Of a DNA stretch of 64,000 nucleotides, positions 19,353 through 35,303 are shown one piece after another (within the stretch, counting starts at the first letter, position 1; each line of letters begins with the position of its first letter). Under the pieces are notes generated by a model. That model did not search any database. It saw nothing but the letters and a program-made list of their open reading frames with translations, and was not told the origin of the DNA. The stretch comes from Polychytrium aggregatum (taxonomy: Eukaryota; Chytridiomycota; Chytridiomycetes; Polychytriales): assembly GCF_025602895.1 (NCBI RefSeq), contig NW_026516220.1, positions 248,001-312,000 of the forward strand, read 5' to 3'. The position numbers and the translations under genes are program-made.

Positions 19353-20087
19353 GTCCCTCGGGATGGCTGGTCCAGACTCGGAAGCATCCTGCCTCCGCTA
19401 TTGCTGTGACAATGCCACCCTCGCCCACACCCTCCCCTCGTGCTCGGACTGACAAGCAGTCGCTCGAGCACGACCGCTAGACCCGTGTCATTTCCCTGGT
19501 GATTTTGTCAGGTAGATCTGGATAGAGCCTACACCTTTCCGCCGTCTGTTGAGCCGAGTACGCATCTGCCTCTCGTGCTGCATTGGACCTCTTTTCCCAT
19601 GGCAGCCTCAACGGAACTGGCCCCTTCCCCTACATCCATCTCCCGAATCCTCCCATCCTGTCTACCAATGTTGTTCTTGTCCACTCTTTTCTCGATTTGA
19701 CTTGCGTGTCTTTTGTTCGTTCTCTCTCTATCGATCTGGCCGTTTGCCCTTCGGTGTTCGCACAGCCGTGTATTTTTTTTTTCAAGTCTTGTTTTGTTCT
19801 TCTCCGTGGCCACACCTCCCTGCTTCGCATCCATGTATCCAATCTCCAGGCCCCTCCCTCCAAATATATATCGCGCTGAGATGAAAGGCAGCATCCGCAG
19901 CGGGATTGGGGTTGGTCGCCAACGCAGGGCGCCAATTGGCCGGTTCCAACACCCATGTCCGACTGGTATGGCAAGGGGCCCAATGTACTTTCGGCCCAGA
20001 GGCGCGGGTTTGGCACACACCTTCCTTCGTCAACATCGCTCGTACATCGCTCGCCCAGCCGGATCCGCTGTTCCTCCGCCAACCAGC
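19353..20087. other. 3' flank of SH3 protein 1 and promoter of NLR-like gene 1
   Basis: A pyrimidine-rich 3' flank is followed by a TATA element, AAATATATA at 19862-19870. Upstream ATGs occur between the TATA box and the chosen start, including one out of frame near 19955, so the NLR start codon is uncertain. Confidence 0.5.
19862..19870 (+). promoter_or_regulatory. TATA-like element before the SAM-TIR-NACHT-WD40 gene
   Basis: AAATATATA, in otherwise GC-rich DNA, about 220 bases upstream of the chosen start codon on the same strand. Confidence 0.45.
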
Positions 20088-23000
20088 ATGCCTCATTCGT
20101 TTACGGAACAGGCTGCTGGCCCCGACAGCTCCGTCCTCTGTGAAAACGGCATCACGACTCTGGCACAGGTCCGCTCTGCTGCGTGTGGCATGGCCCCCAT
20201 TCTTCGCATTCTCCCATCTGACACTGCCGCTGCTGCGTCGCCGTGCTTTCTCCCTCTCGCCATCCAGGTTCGAGAGCTTACCACTGAAGAGCTTGTGCGA
20301 ATCGGGCTCAAGACCGGCAGCGCAATATCGCTGCAGCGACTGGCCCGCTTTGAGCCCTGTAGCCGGCTCCTTGCGTCTCTTGGGCTGGCTCATCTGCGCG
20401 ACGTCTTTCTTGACCACGACCTGTTCTCGATTGAGGAGGTAGGCACCATAGAATCAGCTCAAGAGCGCTCTTGATATCTGCAGCGTGCGGCAGGCCCACA
20501 GCGTTGTCTTTGCTTCCAGCAACTCTGAGACGGAACACAACCAAGCTTGCCTCAAAATCTCACTGCCCTGTTCGCCACAACTTTTCTGCCTCGACAGATC
20601 CTCGCCCTCTCTCGTGGCCGACTCAAGCTCCTGGGGCTCAAGACCGGCGAGATTTTGAGGCTTAGGCTTGCGCAAGAACCCGAGGGGCCCAACGACACCA
20701 ACTGGCAACATGCCCCCGAAAGTGTGCAGCGCTTTCTTGCCGACAGCGGATTCACGGGGCTGTCTTCCCGCTTTGCCCAAGAGTCCGTCGACAACTTGAC
20801 GCTGGTATGCGACGCCGCCGGTGCTATTGTGGGGGTGACTAGCGGTCAGCGAGCCCATCATGGACACTTGCTCATCCGCTTTCGACACTGGACATTTGAC
20901 CTGACCTGTGTCCTCCATTCAAAGGTGGGCCTGCTTGAGCGCCAAGACCTGCTCGATCTTGGCCTTGCCAACGACGACGATGTGGCCAAGTTCATCGCCT
21001 TCCGGGACTTTTCTCCAACATCGCCGCTGCGGCAAAACGTAGGTTCGCAGCCGCCCATCTCCGAATCGATGCCGTTTGTCGGGCCGGCGATGCGCTAAAC
21101 GGGGTGGCTCGCTCTGGATCAGCAGAATGCGACTGCCAAGCCGTCACCCGGCGTTCCATCGGAATGCTGACGATTGGCCACATCCTGCCTTTCAGATTCC
21201 GGCCAGCCTCATCCAGTTCCTTGAACATGCAAAGTTGGTGCCGATCTGGCGAGTCTTTGCCCGCCATGGACTCATGACTCTCTCGGAGGTAGGCTGGCGC
21301 CGCCGTTGGGCTCTCTCTCTCTGTCTCAGCCCACCTGCTCACACCCACACGAGACACCACCGGGCTCTGCCAAAGTTCTCTCGTCTCCCTTGTCAAATTG
21401 GCATGGCCACTCTGCATTCCATGCCCATACTGCTTGTTGTGCATGGCAACGTAACACATGCTTCTGCCCATGCAGATCCAGGAGCTGTCCTCGGGCGAGC
21501 TCGAGAGAATCGGCTTGAGCCTGGGCCAGGTCAAAAGGTGCCTGAGATCCGTCCGAGAGCTCTGTTTGAAGCAGTTTTTGGAAGAGCACTCCCTCTCCGA
21601 GCTTCAGGATCGACTGCTGGCCTACAATCACGACGAAGTCAAGAAGGTGAGATTGCATGAACCACCACCTCGACGACATGGTGCTTTCACACACCGATAT
21701 TGGCATCAACAACGAAAGCTGTCAAAAATCCATTGGTGGCGCCTTATTTGGAAGCAAGACACAGCGCGATGTGGCTCCTTGATACCGGAGCACTGGCCCA
21801 TGTTTCCCTGCTGACCGAAACTCTTTCGACTCCACTTCATGTGTTCTGGTGTCGAGCACAGCTTCGCATCATGACCAAGAACGAGTTCAAGCAGCTGGGG
21901 CTTACAGCCTCGCAGATCCAGACCATCCAGACCCGGCTGGACTCTGACCAAGGTGCGTCGAAAAGTATGGTGCAGGGCAGAAATCTGCCTGCCGCCCGGC
22001 ATATCTCACCCTGACCCAGCCGACTGTCGTGGTATACTGACCCTCCTGTTGTTTCAGCCGCAACGGGCTCTCAGACTTTGCTTTCCAAAAGAGTCGCTCC
22101 GACCTCCATGGTGGTTCAGATCAGCAAAACACCGGACGACTATCTTCTGGCGGCGAAAAGCGCTCTGGACACCGTCGCTAGCCTTGAGAACAAGCTCGGC
22201 AACAACAAGTTCGGCGAAAGCCAGCCCGACGAAAACAAGTCCGAAGAACGCAAGCCAAGCTCGGAGGACATTTTCAAGCTTGCCCTGGATGAAAGCTGGA
22301 GATGCAATGACAGCTACAGCACCCACGACTTTTTCTTGAGGTGAGATGTCTGGGGATATTGGGAAACCAAAGGCTCTACCAACTGGATGATTTGATTGCA
22401 ATGTCCGCCGGTTGATGGTCGTCCGTGTGGCGGCGGGCCATAGCTCGCGCTCCAAAATGTTCGCCGACCTCTGCAACATATTCCGTACCCGTTTGTCTCT
22501 GGATAATGCGATGCCTATCCGTGCCCCGTATCCATGCCACTAAAGACCTCAACCCATGATTAATCACAGCTACCGTGTCCTGAGCGAAGAAGTATCGACC
22601 TCCAGGCTCTTTGCCCAACTCAACAAGAACGGCTACCACGCCTACTGGGACAAGAACTGTTTGAGCGACGGCATCAACTGGGAAAGCGGCTTCATCAACG
22701 GCATTGTCCGCTCCAAGATCGTCGTTTTGATGTGCTCCGAGAAAGCCATGGAGCGGGTCATGACCGCGCACGTCACCCCCGACAACTATTTTCTCGAGGT
22801 GAGATGTCGACGCACCCTCAGCGGCGATCGAGACTGAATTTAAGCAAGATAGCGCGCCACGATTACATCGGAGCCATATCCGATTCATATCTGAGCGGTG
22901 CTCAGGCGCCCAGTATCGACCTAACTACCTCTCCGTTGCTGCGCTTGGCGACGCTCAGTGGGAGCTAGCGCTCGAGCACGTCGACGACCCCTCTGCCAAA

Positions 23001-26000
23001 GCAATGCTCCTCCCCATCCTCATTGCCAGCCAGGTCACAATCGATAGCGACGTATACTTTAAAAGATACTTCCCAAGCTTTGAATCGTTCCCAAACTCGT
23101 ACGCAGCCCACGTCCAGAGCCCGAGACGCCGTACTATCCGCGGAACGATCGAGGAGGTCTTCAAGCTGCAAGCTCTGAGTGCAACCCCCGACTGGGTTGG
23201 GCTGAGGAGGTGAGATAGCCGCTGCTACTGTAGAAGGCGAGCCCACCTCTCCCCACGATCGGGCTGGCTTCTGTTCTCAGCTTCCCGTTGGTGGTTGCTA
23301 TTCGCGGATGTCATGGAGTGTACAGCAAGTCTCACCCCTGCTTGGATTCTTTCCAATGTCGCTCTCCGACAGCTTGGCAAACGATATTATGCAAGTTCAT
23401 TCCAAGTACCAAGAGCGCATGAACTCATCCACCGGCCCTTACAGCCCAACCCCCATCATCAAGTCTGCAAGCGAGGATCGCTTGCTGGCTTCTCTGCTGA
23501 GCCCAATCGACATGGAGCCCGATCTGCGGGAGCTGCGAAGTGCCTATGTCGAGGGAACCCGACTGTGGCTCCTCGACTCGGTCATGCTCTGGGCCGAAGC
23601 CACCGGACATGCAGACAGCCGCATCATGTGGCTCAAGGGCGATGCTGGAACCGGCAAATCGATTTCCGCGTCGCTTGTCGTCGACAGGCTCAAGTCCACC
23701 AACCAGCTGGTGGGCGTGTTTGTATGCAAGTACTACGACGAAGAGCGGAGCAGTCCTCGCCGGCTGATCCACACGCTGGCATATGGTCTTTCGAACTGGA
23801 GCGTCAAGTTTGCTCGACTGCTACTCGCCCAGAACCTCACCAAGGAACAGCTCGCCCAGAGGAGCCTCGTTGATCTATTCGACATCCTCATCGCTCAGCC
23901 GCTTCAGGCCCTCAGCGAAGAGAACCCGACTCAAGCAAACGTAGTGTTGGTCATCGATGCCATCGATGAGCTTGCTCAGCCCCGCGCCGACTTTCTCGAC
24001 ATCCTCGCCAACCATGTTACTGCCCTGCCTCGCTTCGTCAAGCTGTTCCTGACCGGCCGGCCAGACCCAGACATTGTCGGAGCCTTCACAGGAGTGCCCA
24101 CAACGTCCTTGAATCCCTCCGACGATACATCTTGCCAGCAGCAGAATCACCAGGATTCGATCGTGTATGTCAAGTGGCTCCTTCGCGACGACATTTTCTC
24201 CAAATCCGAGCTGACCAAAGCCTCCGAGGTTCTTTTGGAGCGGTCTGGCGGAACCTTTGTGTGGATCAAGATGGCCGTTGCCGCCGTTCGCGAGAAAAAG
24301 GGCGGCGCCAAGCTCGTGCTCCAAGATATTCTCGCGCTCGCTGAGCAAGGGCTTGGCCTGTCAAGCATCTATCGCCAGATGTTTGACCGGTCGCTGGAGG
24401 AAACCTCGCAGGACTCTGATCTCGAGAGTACCCTCCTGTCGACCGTGTGGACAATGGTCTCGCTCGCAGAGCCGCTGAGCGCCGAGGCCATTGCGGAGCT
24501 GCTCGGAATCACTGCATCGGCAGTCAAGCGGGCTCTCGTCAAGCTATCGCTTCTGGTCGATCAGCCCTGCAGCGGATTCATGGGCCAGAGCCGCGTTGCC
24601 AAGTTCTGCCACAAGTCCGTGATGGATTATCTGACCAGCCCGGACTCGGCCATGCGTCCCTACCATACAACTGCCAGCCACCACTATGCTCTTGCCAAGC
24701 GGTGCTTTGCGCTGATTGATGAGCTGCCGAAAGGCGGCAATCTGTGCTCCATCAGCCAGCTCCACGAGAACATCCCGGACTTTCATCAGCTCGTCAATGC
24801 CCGGCTGTCTGCTGCCCAGCAATACAGCTGCGCGCATCTCTTTGATCATCTCTGCAAGATCCCGATGGACTCGGCCGAAATGCTGTCAAAGTGGGATGCC
24901 CGGCTCAGCCCTCTGTTGTCCGTTTTCCTGGAACGGAATTTGCTCGTGTGGATCGAGTCCCTGTCGCTCATCGAGAAGGTTCCGCTGGTGCTCGGACAGC
25001 TGATGAACCTCAAAAAGACCCTGGCCAGCTTCAAGCTCGAGCTTGCTCATCCGCATCTGACCACCATGATCGACGACGCCATCCGGTTCCTCCGAGAGTT
25101 TTCTATCCCGATCTCACAGAGCGCCGTGCACGTGTACCAGTCGGCACTAGCCTTCTGTCCAAAGGAGTCTAGGCTCTATCGGAACTACTACCCGCTCTAC
25201 AGGCATCTGATTCCCATCGAAGTCTTGTACGGCCACGACTCGCTCTGGAGCCAATGTCTCGCTGTCTTGGAGGGCCACAGTGGCGAGGTGCGCTGCGTGC
25301 GCATTTCCGGCGACGGCTCGACAATCGTATCGGCCTCGGCCGACATGACGATCCGCGTCTGGAGCTCAGTCACAGGGTCGCTCGTGCGGACGCTGAAAGG
25401 CCATGACAGCCCTGTTTCGTGCATTGCTCTGTCGACAGACGGCAGCGTCTTGATCTCGGGCGGCGATGATTCCAAGCTAATCATCTGGGACGTGCCCATG
25501 GGATCGCTTCGGAGCAAGATCAGCGCCCACACTCATCCGCTGGTGGCGGTCGATCTCACCAAGGATGGCTCCACTGCTCTCTCGGCTTCGGGTGACCGAA
25601 GCATTGCCCTTTGGGATATATCCACTGGCACCTGCACCCTGAAGATTGTTCACACCATTCCGATCACATCCGCTCGCCTCTCGCCTGACAAATCCACGAT
25701 TTACTCGGGCTGCTTAGATGGCAAGATTCGAATCTGGAGCGTCGAGTCGAGCCAGCTTATCGGCACTCTGCAGGGCCACTGTGCCGAAATCAATGGACTG
25801 ACGGTGTCTTCAAGTGGCTCTCTGCTCATCTCGGCCTCGTGGGATAAGACCGTCCGCATCTGGGATCTCGAAAGCCGCACCATCCGACACACACTCCAGG
25901 GCCACACCGATGGCATCTACGACGTTGCTGTCACTCGCGACGATGCCTTCGTGGTCTCGGCGTCCGAGGACCAGTCACTCTGTGTCTGGGAAGTGGCATC

Positions 26001-26763
26001 TGGCTCGCTGAGGAGGAAGCTGAAGGGACACACCTGGACCGTGTACGCCGCGGACGTATCCGACGAAGCCTGCACCATCGTATCGGGCTCCCGCGACAAG
26101 ACCGTCCGCATCTGGAACCTCTGGGGCGAAGACGACGGCAGCGAGTCCAGCACCACCGGCCACTCTCGCTTCGTCAGCGCTGTATGCTTTTCGCGCGATG
26201 GTCGAAGAATCGCCTCAGCCTCGGCGGACATGACCGTTTGCCTATGGAATGGCGTCACTGGCGAGCTCCTGGGACAACTCTGCGGACACACCGACGCAGT
26301 GCAGTGCGTGGCCATTTCAGGCGATGGCCGTATTGTTGTCTCGGGCGGCCTGGACAAGAGCGTTCGAGTATGGGATGCCCAGACCCTCAGCGTCATCCAC
26401 ATCTTTGAAGACCACGCCAATACCGTGCAGCAGGTGTTCATCTCAGACGATGCTCTGCGTGTCTCCAGCAAAGACACCTACGGACGAATCATTTCCTACG
26501 ATCTGAGCGCCGAGCTACCCGAGCCCATCATGCGCGACGCTTTGGGCACCATACCTGACCCAGAGACCGAGAAGCATGCCGATACTGAATGGACCACTCT
26601 TGCCAACGGCTGGATCCGACACATGGCGGGACAGTTGATCTGGGTCCCCCAGACCTACCGTGTCGACAAGGGTTCCAGCTCCAGCTCGGCCGGGCCCGTG
26701 CGCTGCACTTTTGGTGGGAGTGGCAAGTGTCTAATCTTTCGCATTCACGACTCGGAGGCATAG
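20088..26763 (+). CDS. NLR-like protein: SAM repeats (x5) - TIR - NACHT - WD40 (about 10)
   Basis: Putative intracellular STAND receptor with a TIR effector. Exons are 20088-20168, 20268-20438, 20598-20804, 20925-21038, 21196-21288, 21476-21646, 21862-21952, 22058-22340, 22570-22798, 22914-23209 and 23373-26763; all phases close, giving 1,708 residues. Residues 1-310 hold five SAM-like units, each cut by an intron at the same place; half-motifs include FLEEHSLSELQDRLL and SSGELERIGLSLGQV. A linker leads to a TIR domain (about 395-590). Its first strand, HDFFL joined to SYR, is made only by splicing, followed by YWDKNCLSDGINWESGF and a candidate catalytic Glu in QWELAL. The NACHT has Walker A GDAGTGKS and Walker B VVLVIDAIDEL. 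WD40 repeats run from about residue 1210 to 1640 and are diverged rather than near-identical. The start codon is the least certain part. Confidence 0.88.
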
Positions 26764-29645: not shown

Positions 29646-32600
29646 CTAGTGAGCCTTCGACGCCAGTCTCCAGTTGCCCTTTTTCTTCTCCAGGACAACC
29701 AGCACGCCCCGGTCCGACACCAGAGCAAGCAGATTGTTGAAGCAGGCGGCGATCCGGTATGGTTTTCGGAATCCCTCGGGCAACCAGAGCAGCCGCTCCC
29801 GGCCTTCCAGGAAGAGCCAGCCTTCATCGTCGAGCCAGACCATGACGCTGGTTTGCTCCTCGGGATAGAACTGGCCGCCGCCAATGAGACCCATCAAACC
29901 GCCCCAGGCCTTGCGCTTCCCCGTGCCCAAATCCCAGACGGTGGTGACGATGTTGAGGTTCTGCGTGGACTTGATCTCGAGCCGCTTCAGATCACGCGAC
30001 ATCTTGATGGACTTGATCTCAAAGTTATTGGGCGTCGAGACGTTCTGCTGAATGTGCGTCTGCGGGCTGATGTAGGCCTTGTTGGTGTACTTGATGTCCC
30101 AGATCCGGACGGTCTGGTCAACCGAGCCCGAGGCCAGGGTCGAGCCGTCGGGCGAAATGTCTAGCGACTTGATGCGACCGGGGTGCCCTTTGAGCGACGT
30201 CAGGAAGCCGGATGTTTCGACATCCCATAGCTTGATGGTACCGCCGTCGGAGCCCGAGGCCAGAATGTCGTTCTTGGTCGGCGAGAAGACCAGGGCGCGG
30301 ATGGCGCTGTCGTGGCCGTGGAAGGAGTACTTGAGCTTTTGTTCGTCCAGGCTCCAGATGCGGATCATATTGTCGGCGGTGCTGGAGGCAAGCATCTTGT
30401 TGGAGGCCGAGAAGGCAATCGCGTGCACAGGACCGCTGGTCTTTGGGAAGCCCGTGATGATGTTGCCGTTGGCGGTGCTCCAGAAAATGACTCCATCCTC
30501 GCTGCTGTTTGTGCCGCAGGCTATCATGGTGCCGTCGCGGGAGTACTCCATGCAGTACACCTGGTCGACGTGGCTCTCGAGCGTCCGGATGCAGGTTCGG
30601 GTGACCATGTCCCAGATGCAGATGACGCCGTTGAGGGATCCTGTCGCCAAGGACCCGCCATCGGGCGCAAATCGGCAAAAGCGCAGATGGTGCTGCTCGC
30701 TAGCGAGAGTGGCGATGAGTTGGCCGGTAAGGACGTCCCAGAGCTTGATTTGCCCGTCGTCGCTGACAGAGCATGCCGTGCCGCCGTCGGGCGAAAGGTC
30801 GACGCACTGGATGCCGTGGCTGTGTCCCTTCAGATCCTTCTCGAGCGTCCAGGCCCTGACGCTCCAGATCTTGGCCGTGGCATCCAAGGCGCCCGACACC
30901 AGGCGCTGGCCGTCCTTGGAAAATCGCACGGAGGCGACGGGCTCGCTGTGGCTGGTCAGTGACGAGATCTCGGCGCTCCAGACCTCGTCATAACCAAGGA
31001 CGATGCGGAAGCCCATCAAATCATTGTCGCGATAGGACTGATAGATCGAGGTCTTCTTGGGCAGGAACGGCAGGACGGTATAGTAGATCTGGAGGGGGTT
31101 CCACGAGATGGCGTTGCGGAACCGGCGGATCATGCGGTTGCAGTCGTCAAAGATGCTGTGAGTGAACTCATCGTCTTTGATGATCTCGGTCATCGCGACA
31201 CAGGTCGATGGAACGGTATCGAGACTCTGCAGAATCACCATGGCCTCGATCCAGTGGAGCATGTGGGTGGATGCAAAGATCTCGATCGCTGGAGCCAGGG
31301 TCTTCTGGAAGCGCGAGTGGTTCTTGGCGGCGTCCACATGCTCGGCCCAGTATTTGCACGCATACACCAGCCCTTCGGGAAGCCCGGCGTCTTCGGGGTC
31401 AAAGGTGTTGAGGGGATCCTCAATACCCAGCAGGTCGGCTTTGAGGTTGTGAATCAGGATGGAAAGGGCGCCCTTGGCCATGTGGTACTCAACATCCTTA
31501 AGAGGGACGTGGAACTGAGGATTGTCGCAGCGCTCGGTGATGTAGTCTTTGAAGCTCTTGTGAATCAGGGACACAGTCTGGTTGCTGTAGTGGAGGATAG
31601 AGCGAATCTGCAAAGGCGTTGCAGAGACAGAGGACAGGCGCGGTGTCAGAGCAGCTGTGAACGGCACGACAGGGTCTTGCATTCGCTCTGAAGAAAGGCG
31701 CACGGTCGGCACAGACGGCGCAGTCACAGTCACAGCACAGACTTACCCGCATCAACACACTGCCAACGACGCTCTCAGACACATGCAGGAGCTCGGCGAT
31801 TGTCTTTTGTGTGATGGGCTCCTTGGCGACCAAAATAATGCCCAGGACGAGCTTGAAGCGGTTAAAGACCGTGTTCCAGTCGGCGCTGTCGTCGTTGGCG
31901 TTTGGATACGCATTCAGCAGAAGCCGTTCGTAGACATCATCCATGTAAGGCTGCAGCGTATTGATGAGCTCCAGCATGGCTGCCGAGTCCTGAGGACGGC
32001 CCTTTTCAAGCTGGTCGCAGGCCAAGCGAGCGTACAGGAAGACACCGTCGGCCTTGGCCGTCAGGCGCGAGACGCAGGTCTCGAGCAATTCTGGGCTCTG
32101 AAACTCAGCAAAGACCTGCAGCCGGCTCTGGATATAGATCCGGATGTCGCCTTCGTTGAGCTGGCGCTGGAGCTCGAAGGTGTTCATCCCCTCGAGCGAC
32201 TCCCAGATGTCTTTCTCTGGGCGGGACGTCACAAAGAGCTTGACCAGGGAGCCCGACTGGCGCTCGATCAAGTACTTGACGGCGCTGATGAGCTCGCGGC
32301 GCTCGGAGCTGCGCTGGGTGCCGCATTCGTCCAGTGCATCGATCATGATGATGGTGGGGAGCCCCTCGTCGCTGAGGCTTTTGACGCTGTCGAAGATGAG
32401 GGTCTCGAGGAGGACGTTGATGGGCTGGTGCAAGATGCTGGCACGGCCCTCGTCCTGGTCATGCTGGTCCAGCATCGCAAGCGACTCGAGATGGGTCTTG
32501 ATCGAAGGGAAGCGCACAGCCAAGCCATAGGCAATCGACTTGATGATGCTCCGCACAGTGTTTTTGTTGGTATCGTTGTGTCGGCAGAAGGCAATGGTGC

Positions 32601-35005
32601 CAAACTGGATATCCTCGGGAACGTTCTGGGACAGGAACCAAGCAATCACCGACTTGCCGAGACCCGAGCCACCCTGCAGCCAAATGAATGGCTTTTGGGG
32701 ATCGTGGAGCCAGTCGTGGAATACCGGGATAAGCCACTCGCGGGTTCCGGCGACGTAGCGCTTCTTGTAGCGGCTGATGTCGTTGGTGAAATCCGCTGGG
32801 CGCAGCCAGCGCTTGAGGAGGTCGGAGCTCGAGGAGGCGTTGGAGTGGTGCATCGAGGTTGGCTGCCGGTGGACCGAGTTGTGCAGTGTTCGCACATACT
32901 CTTCGACATAGGCCTGCGAGTCGCTGGCGGTTGTGCGAGGGGGCAGTGCCTCATCAGCGAGAGTGGAATGGCCGTCGTCCTCCTCGTTAGAGCCCTGGTC
33001 GGTGGCAGTAGCCGTGGTCGTGGTGGCGGCGCCTTCAAAGTGCTCCAGAACTGAGTTCAGCGACGGGCGGGGTGGCACCGAAGCACTTGTCTGCTGGGTC
33101 ATGCTGTTAGCCTCGAGCCAGCTGTTGATAAAGTTTGGGCTGGTGAGCGAGTTGCCGAACTCTCGCTGGTAGCTTGAGTTTGTGCGGGCCGCCGAGCTGT
33201 TTGCAGGCAGACTCTCTCTTCTTGCCGAAAACTCGTCCATGGTGCTGGCCCGGACGACGCTCTTCAGGGTCTTGGACACGGCTTGGATCTGAGCCTCGTC
33301 AGTGGGGGTAAAGATGTTTTCGATCGGAGGACGGGGAGGGATCGAGGCGTCGGTTTGGCAGGTCAGGCTGTTGGCTTCCATCCAGTGGGTCATGGCTGCA
33401 CTGTTGGAGAATGACCCTTGGAATCCTGGTCCCGTCGAGGCTGGAGGTGGGCGGAGGGAGTCGAGTGCATGGGGGTCGTGCAGCTGCGAGTCGTCGGCCA
33501 CCAGGGACTCTGGAGGAGGGAGCGCCGCAAGCATGGGCGATTCGGCGTGGACGCCCATGTGAATATGGATTTCCTTCTCGAGCTGGTTGATCTTGTCGGT
33601 CCAGGCTTCGGTGTCGGGCTCAATGTCCGCCAGGTCGATGTAGAGCAAACCGGCAGTCGCCAGGAAGGTGGCGCCGAAGGCACGCTCGCCGCTCTTCAGG
33701 AGACGGACGGGGACGATGGGCTTTTGGAGATCCAGGGCATAGCGGAGCTCAAGTTGGCAGTTGCGGGACTCCTGGATGTCGCAGCAGGGTGAAATGGAAT
33801 GGACGAAGGATCACACGAACGAATGAATGAGCAGGATGAAAATTCGGCGGATCAGGTCATGCGATGGACAGGCAACATGCATCACAAGCGCGCCGGCTGA
33901 GTCGATTCATGGACAGGTGCGAGAGCAGTCGATGAGGACGATACCACTGCGGCATGCCGAGACATCCCTGCTGGTGCGAATGCAAACAACAGCCCCGCAA
34001 AAGCCAACGCGGCATCGATCCTGACCTGGTACTTGTGCGAGATGCAGGGGGCAAAGACCTTGCTGTTGATGACGGCCTCAGCCATGCGCTCGTAGATGTT
34101 GCCCGTCATCTGGCTCTCGTCCATCCAGACCTTGATGTTGCGTGCACGGAGGTCCTGGCAGAGCTGTTTGACCTTGGGCTTGGTGTCCCATTGGTACGAG
34201 AGCATGACGTCGAATTGCTCGGGCGTATCGCTTATCGACAAGTACGAGACAGAGGGGCTGTTTGCGGATGGGAGCGACGACGAGATATTGAACGAGCTCG
34301 AGAGCAGACTGGTGGAGGGCATGGTGTTGAGTGAGTGGTGAGTCCGGAGGGTGACGACGAGAGATAGGCGGGCCGAGCCCAGGAGCAAGGAGGAGAAGAC
34401 CGAGTCTTCGATCAGGATGTAGCTGCGGCTGTTCTCGGAGTAGCTGAGCTGGACCTCCTTTGGCGTGGCCACGGGCAAGTCGAGCTCCCTTATAATCTGG
34501 GAGACAGGAATTCGGATGAATTGCCGAGACACGGTAGCGTAGCGACGAATGGCGGGATATTGGCAAAGGCGGTGGATATTAGTCGTCCGTCAGAGGCCCC
34601 AAGCGGTGAAACTGCAACGCCGAAGCGCCCGGGTGAAGCCAGAGAGGGGAGGGATGGACGACAGCAACCCAAGGCCATTGCGAGACCCGGCAGAGCGGCC
34701 CTAGCGCTCCGACACACTTCCAGCAGCACCCAGCACCCAGTAACACCCGGCAGCACCCGGCAGCACCCAATAGTGTCCAGCAGCACCCAGAGGCAGCCGG
34801 CAGAGGCGACAAGCAGTAGCGGCAGACAGAGCAGCGCTTGCGGGCCAGGTCTTTCCCTCGGAGCAGCAGGCGGCCGTACCTTGCGCTTAAAGTCCACCAC
34901 GGAGGGCGGCAGCGAGACCGACAGGACATAGACATGGTCGCTATACTCGATGTCGACGAAGCGGCAGCTGGCGTTGAGCTGGGTGGGACTGGCATGCGAC
35001 GGCAT
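29646..35005 (-). CDS. NLR-like protein: PB1/ubiquitin-like - TIR - NACHT - WD40 (about 7)
   Basis: Second TIR-type STAND protein. Exons in gene order are 35005-34880, 34496-34026, 33771-31747 and 31607-29646; all start and end in phase 0, giving 1,527 residues. Residues 10-90 form a beta-grasp-like domain (VYVLSVSLPPSVVDFKRK joined to IIRELDLP, ending YILIEDSVFSSLLLG), resembling PB1 or ubiquitin-like adaptors. The TIR domain follows: FDVMLSYQW, IKVWMDESQMTGNIY, and across a splice SHKYQ to ESRNCQLELRYAL, where the Glu in CQLEL is the candidate NADase residue. After a Ser/Pro linker that twice repeats a WLEANS/WMEANS motif, the NACHT has Walker A GGSGLGKS and Walker B TIIMIDALDEC. A winged-helix-like part precedes seven WD40 repeats (for example DGGTIKLWDV). 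It converges on NLR gene 1, and its 5' end faces METTL25. Confidence 0.9.
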
Positions 35006-35303
35006 GAAAGGCAGCCCGGCAAGATCAGAAGCGAAAGCCGACGACTGGACCGCCACCTGGGGCCCGCAGCCTGAAATAGTCTGCGAGCACGTTGCGGGCT
35101 GGTCGTCGGCTTGCAAGCGCCGGTGGCGAGTCGCCATGCTGGGCCTGTCCCACGGGGCCTGGCTGCTCGCTGTATCGCCGTGCAGAAGGGATTGGCCAGG
35201 CGCATTCCTCTTGGGACGCTGCGATCCGCACCAGCGCCGTGATCGACGCTGCCATCGACGCTGCCGTCCGCTGTCTGCTCCTGCACCCGGCCATTCCGCG
35301 GCG
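35006..35303. promoter_or_regulatory. Short bidirectional promoter, NLR-2 / METTL25
   Basis: Only 298 bases separate the start codons of two divergent genes, so they probably share regulatory DNA. No TATA element is evident. Confidence 0.5.

Follow-up and report, generated by a model that had tools for sequence, protein, structure and literature searches.

The window analysed here, a stretch of 64,000 nucleotides of Polychytrium aggregatum DNA, carries on its forward strand a gene (the target) predicted to encode, from N to C-terminal, an array of SAM units, a TIR domain, a NACHT-type STAND ATPase and WD40 repeats. Its features, in window positions, are as follows:

20088–26763, + strand: whole coding region, 11 exons, 1,693 residues, first ATG uncertain
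20088–20168, 20268–20438, 20598–20804, 20925–21038, 21196–21288 and 21476–21646, + strand: exons 1 to 6, with GT-AG introns
21862–21952, 22058–22340, 22570–22798, 22959–23209 and 23373–26763, + strand: exons 7 to 11, with GT-AG introns
20133–20336, + strand: SAM unit 1, residues 16–50, N-terminal part missing, spans intron 1 (11.2 bits)
20370–20678, + strand: SAM unit 2, residues 62–111, spans intron 2 (38.5 bits)
20727–20969, + strand: SAM unit 3, residues 128–168, weak, spans intron 3, whose position agrees (5.2 bits)
21214–21538, + strand: SAM unit 4, residues 198–243, spans intron 5 (17.4 bits; best Pfam SAM_1 stretch 191–251)
21569–21930, + strand: SAM unit 5, residues 254–302, spans intron 6 (20.1 bits; best Pfam SAM_EPH stretch 251–303)
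22330–23030, + strand: TIR domain (Pfam TIR_2), residues 401–504, exons 8 to 10 (E 7.2e-9)
22796–22798, + strand: final codon of exon 9, for E480, predicted as the catalytic glutamate (from the family and SARM1 alignments)
22959–23209, + strand: exon 10, beginning WELAL, second half of the TIR domain; its acceptor agrees with the paralogues
23554–24060, + strand: NACHT-type STAND ATPase core (Pfam NPHP3_N), residues 625–793
23638–23661, + strand: Walker A motif GDAGTGKS, by eye
23941–23973, + strand: Walker B motif VVLVIDAIDEL, by eye
25252–26470, + strand: WD40 repeats, nine Pfam stretches, limits approximate

Gene model and C-terminal half

All 11 exons of the predicted model join at GT-AG introns into a single open frame of 1,693 residues. 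Along this frame the GC content at codon positions 1, 2 and 3 is similar in exons 1–10 (0.58/0.40/0.73) and in exon 11 (0.58/0.45/0.73), with third-position values of 0.730 and 0.727, respectively, in agreement with the in-phase exons of the original prediction. The Pfam matches follow one another in the order SAM, TIR, NACHT and WD40, and the fused plan that had been proposed is almost certainly the architecture of the predicted protein.

The start codon is uncertain, as further in-frame ATGs lie upstream of the modelled one at positions 19833, 19881, 19968 and 19983. Their use would add an Arg-rich N-terminus (window 19833–20087), with no acidic residues from 19968 on as judged by eye, which could be a candidate mitochondrial signal. 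A search of the same upstream side for a better first SAM half than that of exon 1 gave a best score of 0.1 bits. Contig C320 carries another copy of exon 11, with two synonymous changes over 3,391 bases and none that alters an amino acid, and exon 11 thus bears no sign of decay; since this contig begins after the TIR domain, it offers no counterpart of the N-terminal exons for comparison.

The ATPase core is recognised by both NPHP3_N (E 1.4e-27, 97.3 bits) and NACHT (E 7.3e-7, 29.6 bits against a cut-off of 26.7), and its Walker A and Walker B motifs are intact, as had been predicted. The WD40 family matches the C-terminal part strongly (E 4.1e-81); the predicted array is therefore present, with nine Pfam stretches for the ten or so repeats first counted. 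The N-terminal effector and the C-terminal repeats that characterise an NLR are both found, in the form of the TIR domain and the WD40 array. Compared by sequence with the PDB, the NACHT stretch matched no NLR, the sole match being a replication protein at E 0.082, and its AlphaFold model, from a two-sequence input, was too poor for use (mean pLDDT 40.1).

SAM array and TIR domain

SAM units were detected with a model derived from eight SAMs of paralogues, the target sequence being left out, and scores were compared with those of the same residues shuffled 2,000 times, among which the best single domain reached 7.3 bits. Pfam SAM_1 also matches the target (E 3.2e-13, 50.3 bits against a cut-off of 23) in three stretches. 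The array does not amount to five complete units: of the five SAM-like units originally read from the DNA three are clear, unit 1 is truncated, and unit 3, at 5.2 bits, is on its own within chance, while the intron positions back all five. Indeed, the five introns that split these units all fall after position 27 of the SAM model and in phase 0, which points to tandem exon duplication. To judge from these shared positions, the repeated exon would have held parts of two successive SAMs, the second half of the earlier and the first half of the later; exons 2 and 6 share a length of 171 bases. Among solved structures, the best match of the family SAM profile is the Caskin-1/EphA6 SAM (E 1e-8), and the SAMs of SARM1 are absent from the significant PDB matches of both this profile and the target array.

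The TIR domain scores 36.6 bits against the curated TIR_2 cut-off of 28, which upholds its identification. With the acceptor that starts exon 10 at 22959, the junction between exons 9 and 10 reads DNYFLE^WELAL, and paralogue TIRs likewise resume after intron 9 with [WIV][EQ]xA. The original prediction had seen the catalytic glutamate within QWELAL, a reading that requires an earlier in-frame acceptor at 22914. In nine aligned family TIRs the glutamate directly before intron 9, E480 in the target, is invariant (9/9), whereas the position of the QWELAL glutamate, E482, holds Glu in four and Gln in five. Searched against the PDB, the family TIR profile found SARM1 as its best match (E 3.8e-6); the 17 distinct sequences at E < 0.001 were all SARM1, and no plant TIR appeared among the matches at E up to 1. 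The alignment given by this profile, of the kind proposed as a check on the QWELAL residue, places E480 and not E482 on the catalytic glutamate of SARM1, named E642 in the accessible text of PMC7282519. The assignment to QWELAL thus gives way to E480. The suggested resemblance to SARM1 is borne out at the level of the family profile; the target TIR alone matched SARM1 at only E 0.054, in an alignment that stops short of the glutamate.

At the genome level, the pattern DNx[FL][FL]E with a GT donor after it occurs at 99 sites, against one for the reversed control, and the same pattern with Gln in place of Glu occurs at none. Four residues before E480, all aligned family TIRs (9/9) have Asn and SARM1 has Trp, so that the family active site does not reproduce that of SARM1 exactly. 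This substitution would suit a TIR that acts as a scaffold or makes another product (e.g. cyclic nucleotides or ADP-ribose variants), with an output other than NAD+ loss. The invariant glutamate and the 99 sites with Glu against none with Gln argue for an NAD+-using kind of enzyme, and we regard the scaffold or other-product reading as unlikely, though the strongest of the alternatives. Single peptide patterns, a weak test, retrieved 55 stretches in prokaryote contigs and 69 in viral contigs as possible relatives of this TIR, none of which was confirmed.

Related genes in the genome

The 64.7 Mb assembly (418 contigs) contains 26 matches to Chitin_synth_1 (best E 1.3e-58) and 11 to Fungal_trans, families without any match in 14 control prokaryotes, in line with the fungus-like genome that had been surmised. 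It yields 106 NPHP3_N matches, or 101 NACHT-like places once five second fragments are merged; as allelic contigs are included, a haploid set has fewer than 101 such genes. By scripted search, 96/101 places have a TIR match in the 2.5 kb upstream of them; at one of these, C320:284, only the linker is matched, as the contig begins at this point. Upstream of 88 of the 101 lies the DNx[FL][FL]E^GT motif, which is absent at 13, and 11 further sites have no NACHT nearby. SAM sequence is found upstream at 74/101, allelic copies included, of which 68 were detected by exon query (E ≤ 0.001, SAM part covered) and six by half-models. Thus the target is, by its sequence, no lone fusion but belongs to a large family in this genome that shares its domain order, which makes the original prediction incomplete.

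Detection of paralogue SAMs needed short SAM half-models. A scan of the whole genome with Pfam SAM_1 gave seven matches, all away from the target and from every TIR place, since the family SAMs are split by introns; all four paralogue SAMs tested (4/4) pass a Pfam SAM cut-off. With the target array as genome query, only its own exons were found (seven matches, from four first-look candidates). The exon that combines the second SAM half, the linker and the first TIR strand has 83 genome matches at E up to 0.1.

Twenty-seven paralogue loci (L012–L038), six of which contributed to the half-models, were considered individually, and SAM halves precede the TIR in 23. Those without SAM form two apparently allelic pairs, L014/L015 and L016/L017; the latter (C168:479355 and C362:316894) carry a UBA domain (E 2.3e-8) before a TIR of the same type, and have no NACHT place near. 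The three paralogue frames examined for their C-terminus end in WD40. Two SAMs are found in L045, L047 and, with the second half of its first SAM recognised by eye only, L046. Ahead of the first SAM, these three loci each begin with a hydrophobic segment resembling, on inspection by eye, a membrane anchor, and hydrophobic stretches before the SAM are present in L035/L049 too.

A NACHT tree of 29 rows puts the target weakly beside L035 (87/74) and outside the expanded, supported clade of 25 (99/96), its exact place being unsure because several branches are long. The TIRs of fifteen loci (L020, L022, L024–L030, L032–L034 and L036–L038, some of them allelic) are identical or nearly so, and these loci are, on that likeness, a very recent burst of copies; a simple repeat coding for Ser-His lies in intron 9 of several of them.

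Other TIR genes are also present. Convergent with the target, at approximately 29646–35012 on the - strand of the window, is a gene with TIR_2 (8.2e-22), NPHP3_N (1.3e-27) and WD40 (1.8e-58) matches and without SAM. Its first 120 or so residues have no Pfam match; a PB1 domain considered for its N-terminus was dropped, as Pfam gave only TIR and XisI there. Elsewhere, L050 (C113:227400–233000) has a TIR below the cut-off (TIR_2, 24.2 bits), then a P-loop frame and a TPR-like frame, seen by eye. TIR matches without a NACHT-like match nearby number 33 places, some within long frames, and represent other TIR proteins.

Possible mechanism and relation to known systems

Sensing by WD40 repeats, ring formation by NACHT ATPases, crowding of TIRs, NAD+ cleavage and the resulting death or alarm are established biology of NLRs and SARM1. 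The target is accordingly best pictured as a NOD-like receptor of TIR type whose output end resembles SARM1. In the resting state, the protein would be kept monomeric by its WD40 repeats and an ADP-bound NACHT. A ligand on the WD40 part would trigger nucleotide exchange in the NACHT and assembly of a ring; the TIRs would then be crowded at its hub and held further by SAM-SAM contacts, and paired TIRs would cleave NAD+ through E480, leading to cell death or alarm. SAM and NACHT would thus be two oligomer-makers flanking one TIR, one perhaps the trigger and the other the lock. We consider this full mechanism moderately probable; the resting and active states, SAM oligomerisation, the NADase activity and a role in defence are what we infer from the domains.

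The same machine might serve self/non-self recognition between strains, as HET-E and HET-D do, rather than defence against parasites. HET-E has the NACHT-WD40 plan in common with the target, and in five paralogues neighbouring WD40 repeats are 60–83% alike, as expected under repeat-shuffled recognition; the neighbouring repeats of the target itself are, in contrast, at most 38% alike, and hyphal fusion is not usual in zoosporic fungi, to which this species may belong; we regard this purpose as improbable. It is very improbable that the NACHT-WD40 exon belongs to a gene of its own, wrongly joined to a neighbouring gene made up of the SAM/TIR exons: the intron 10 join is based on GT-AG borders and frame, but in paralogues the second SAM half, the linker and the TIR start share one exon, intron 9 and its flanking residues recur, and L042 holds the second TIR half, NPHP3_N and WD40 in a single frame of 1,683 residues.

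Within the favoured scheme of a WD40-triggered NAD+-cleaving receptor, the fast-changing paralogues with one or two SAMs might be sensors, and the single old five-SAM gene a shared helper or hub that co-polymerises with them via its SAM array and amplifies NAD+ cleavage. SAM contacts would then be the wiring of a natural network of receptors, similar to that of plant helper NLRs but based on SAM filaments, and how strong the response is would depend on array length. We put this extension forward as a long shot.

SARM1, an animal NAD+ hydrolase, has the layout ARM-SAM-SAM-TIR, with the ARM part holding the TIR off. Like SARM1, the target has SAM units directly before the TIR, its family TIR profile is nearest to SARM1 among solved structures with the glutamate in the aligned place, and some paralogues have two SAMs. 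Unlike SARM1, it has five SAM units and a NACHT and WD40 repeats after the TIR, and no ARM family is among the Pfam families listed for it (best 25 of 56 in one scan). With the HET-E and HET-D NLRs it shares an N-terminal effector, a NACHT-type STAND ATPase and C-terminal WD40 repeats; here, however, a TIR and SAMs replace the HET domain, Pfam listing TIR_2 and no HET family there. In the accessible text of PMC4986451 the HET domain is only a remote relative of TIR. As in plant TIR-NLRs, a STAND ATPase ring would bring TIRs together, although the core of the target is of NACHT type with WD40 repeats, whereas that of the plant proteins is NB-ARC with LRR. By its sequence the target is thus an NLR with SARM1-like parts, and neither a SARM1 nor a HET-E.

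TIR NLRs are already known in fungi, and the target resembles them in joining a TIR to an NLR core. The available parts of the literature mention a small group of fungal TIR NLRs (PMC10197012) and report TIRs in NLRs of Chytridiomycota, with a SAM family among fungal NLR N-termini (PMC9815663). In these accounts neither a SAM before the TIR nor a large expansion is described, in which they differ from the present family. Elsewhere, to the extent of the accessible texts, chytrids gave no NLR hits (PMC4986451), an atlas has hardly any TIRs of fungi, and the ones it reports come from Rhizoclosmatium globosum (PMC13142454), and in a fungus-wide count NLR numbers start at one in species of Chytridiomycota and Mucoromycota (PMC12258605). 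The papers searched, as far as accessible, describe no SAM-TIR-NACHT-WD40 order and no expansion on such a scale in an early-branching fungus, consistent with the original remark that no fungal protein of this order had been described.

Two artificial fusions built in the laboratory showed, in the portions of the papers available, that crowding switches TIR enzymes on: the SAMs of SARM1 fused to plant TIRs enabled NADase activity (PMC7282519), and the TIR of SARM1 placed on the NACHT protein NLRC4 was an active NADase upon ring formation and not as a monomer (PMC7414095). Both ideas are seemingly combined here in one natural protein, many times over. Moreover, by our analysis a fungus has many bona fide TIR NLRs, which opens both the descent of the fungal HET domain from TIR and fungal immunity based on NAD+ to direct test.
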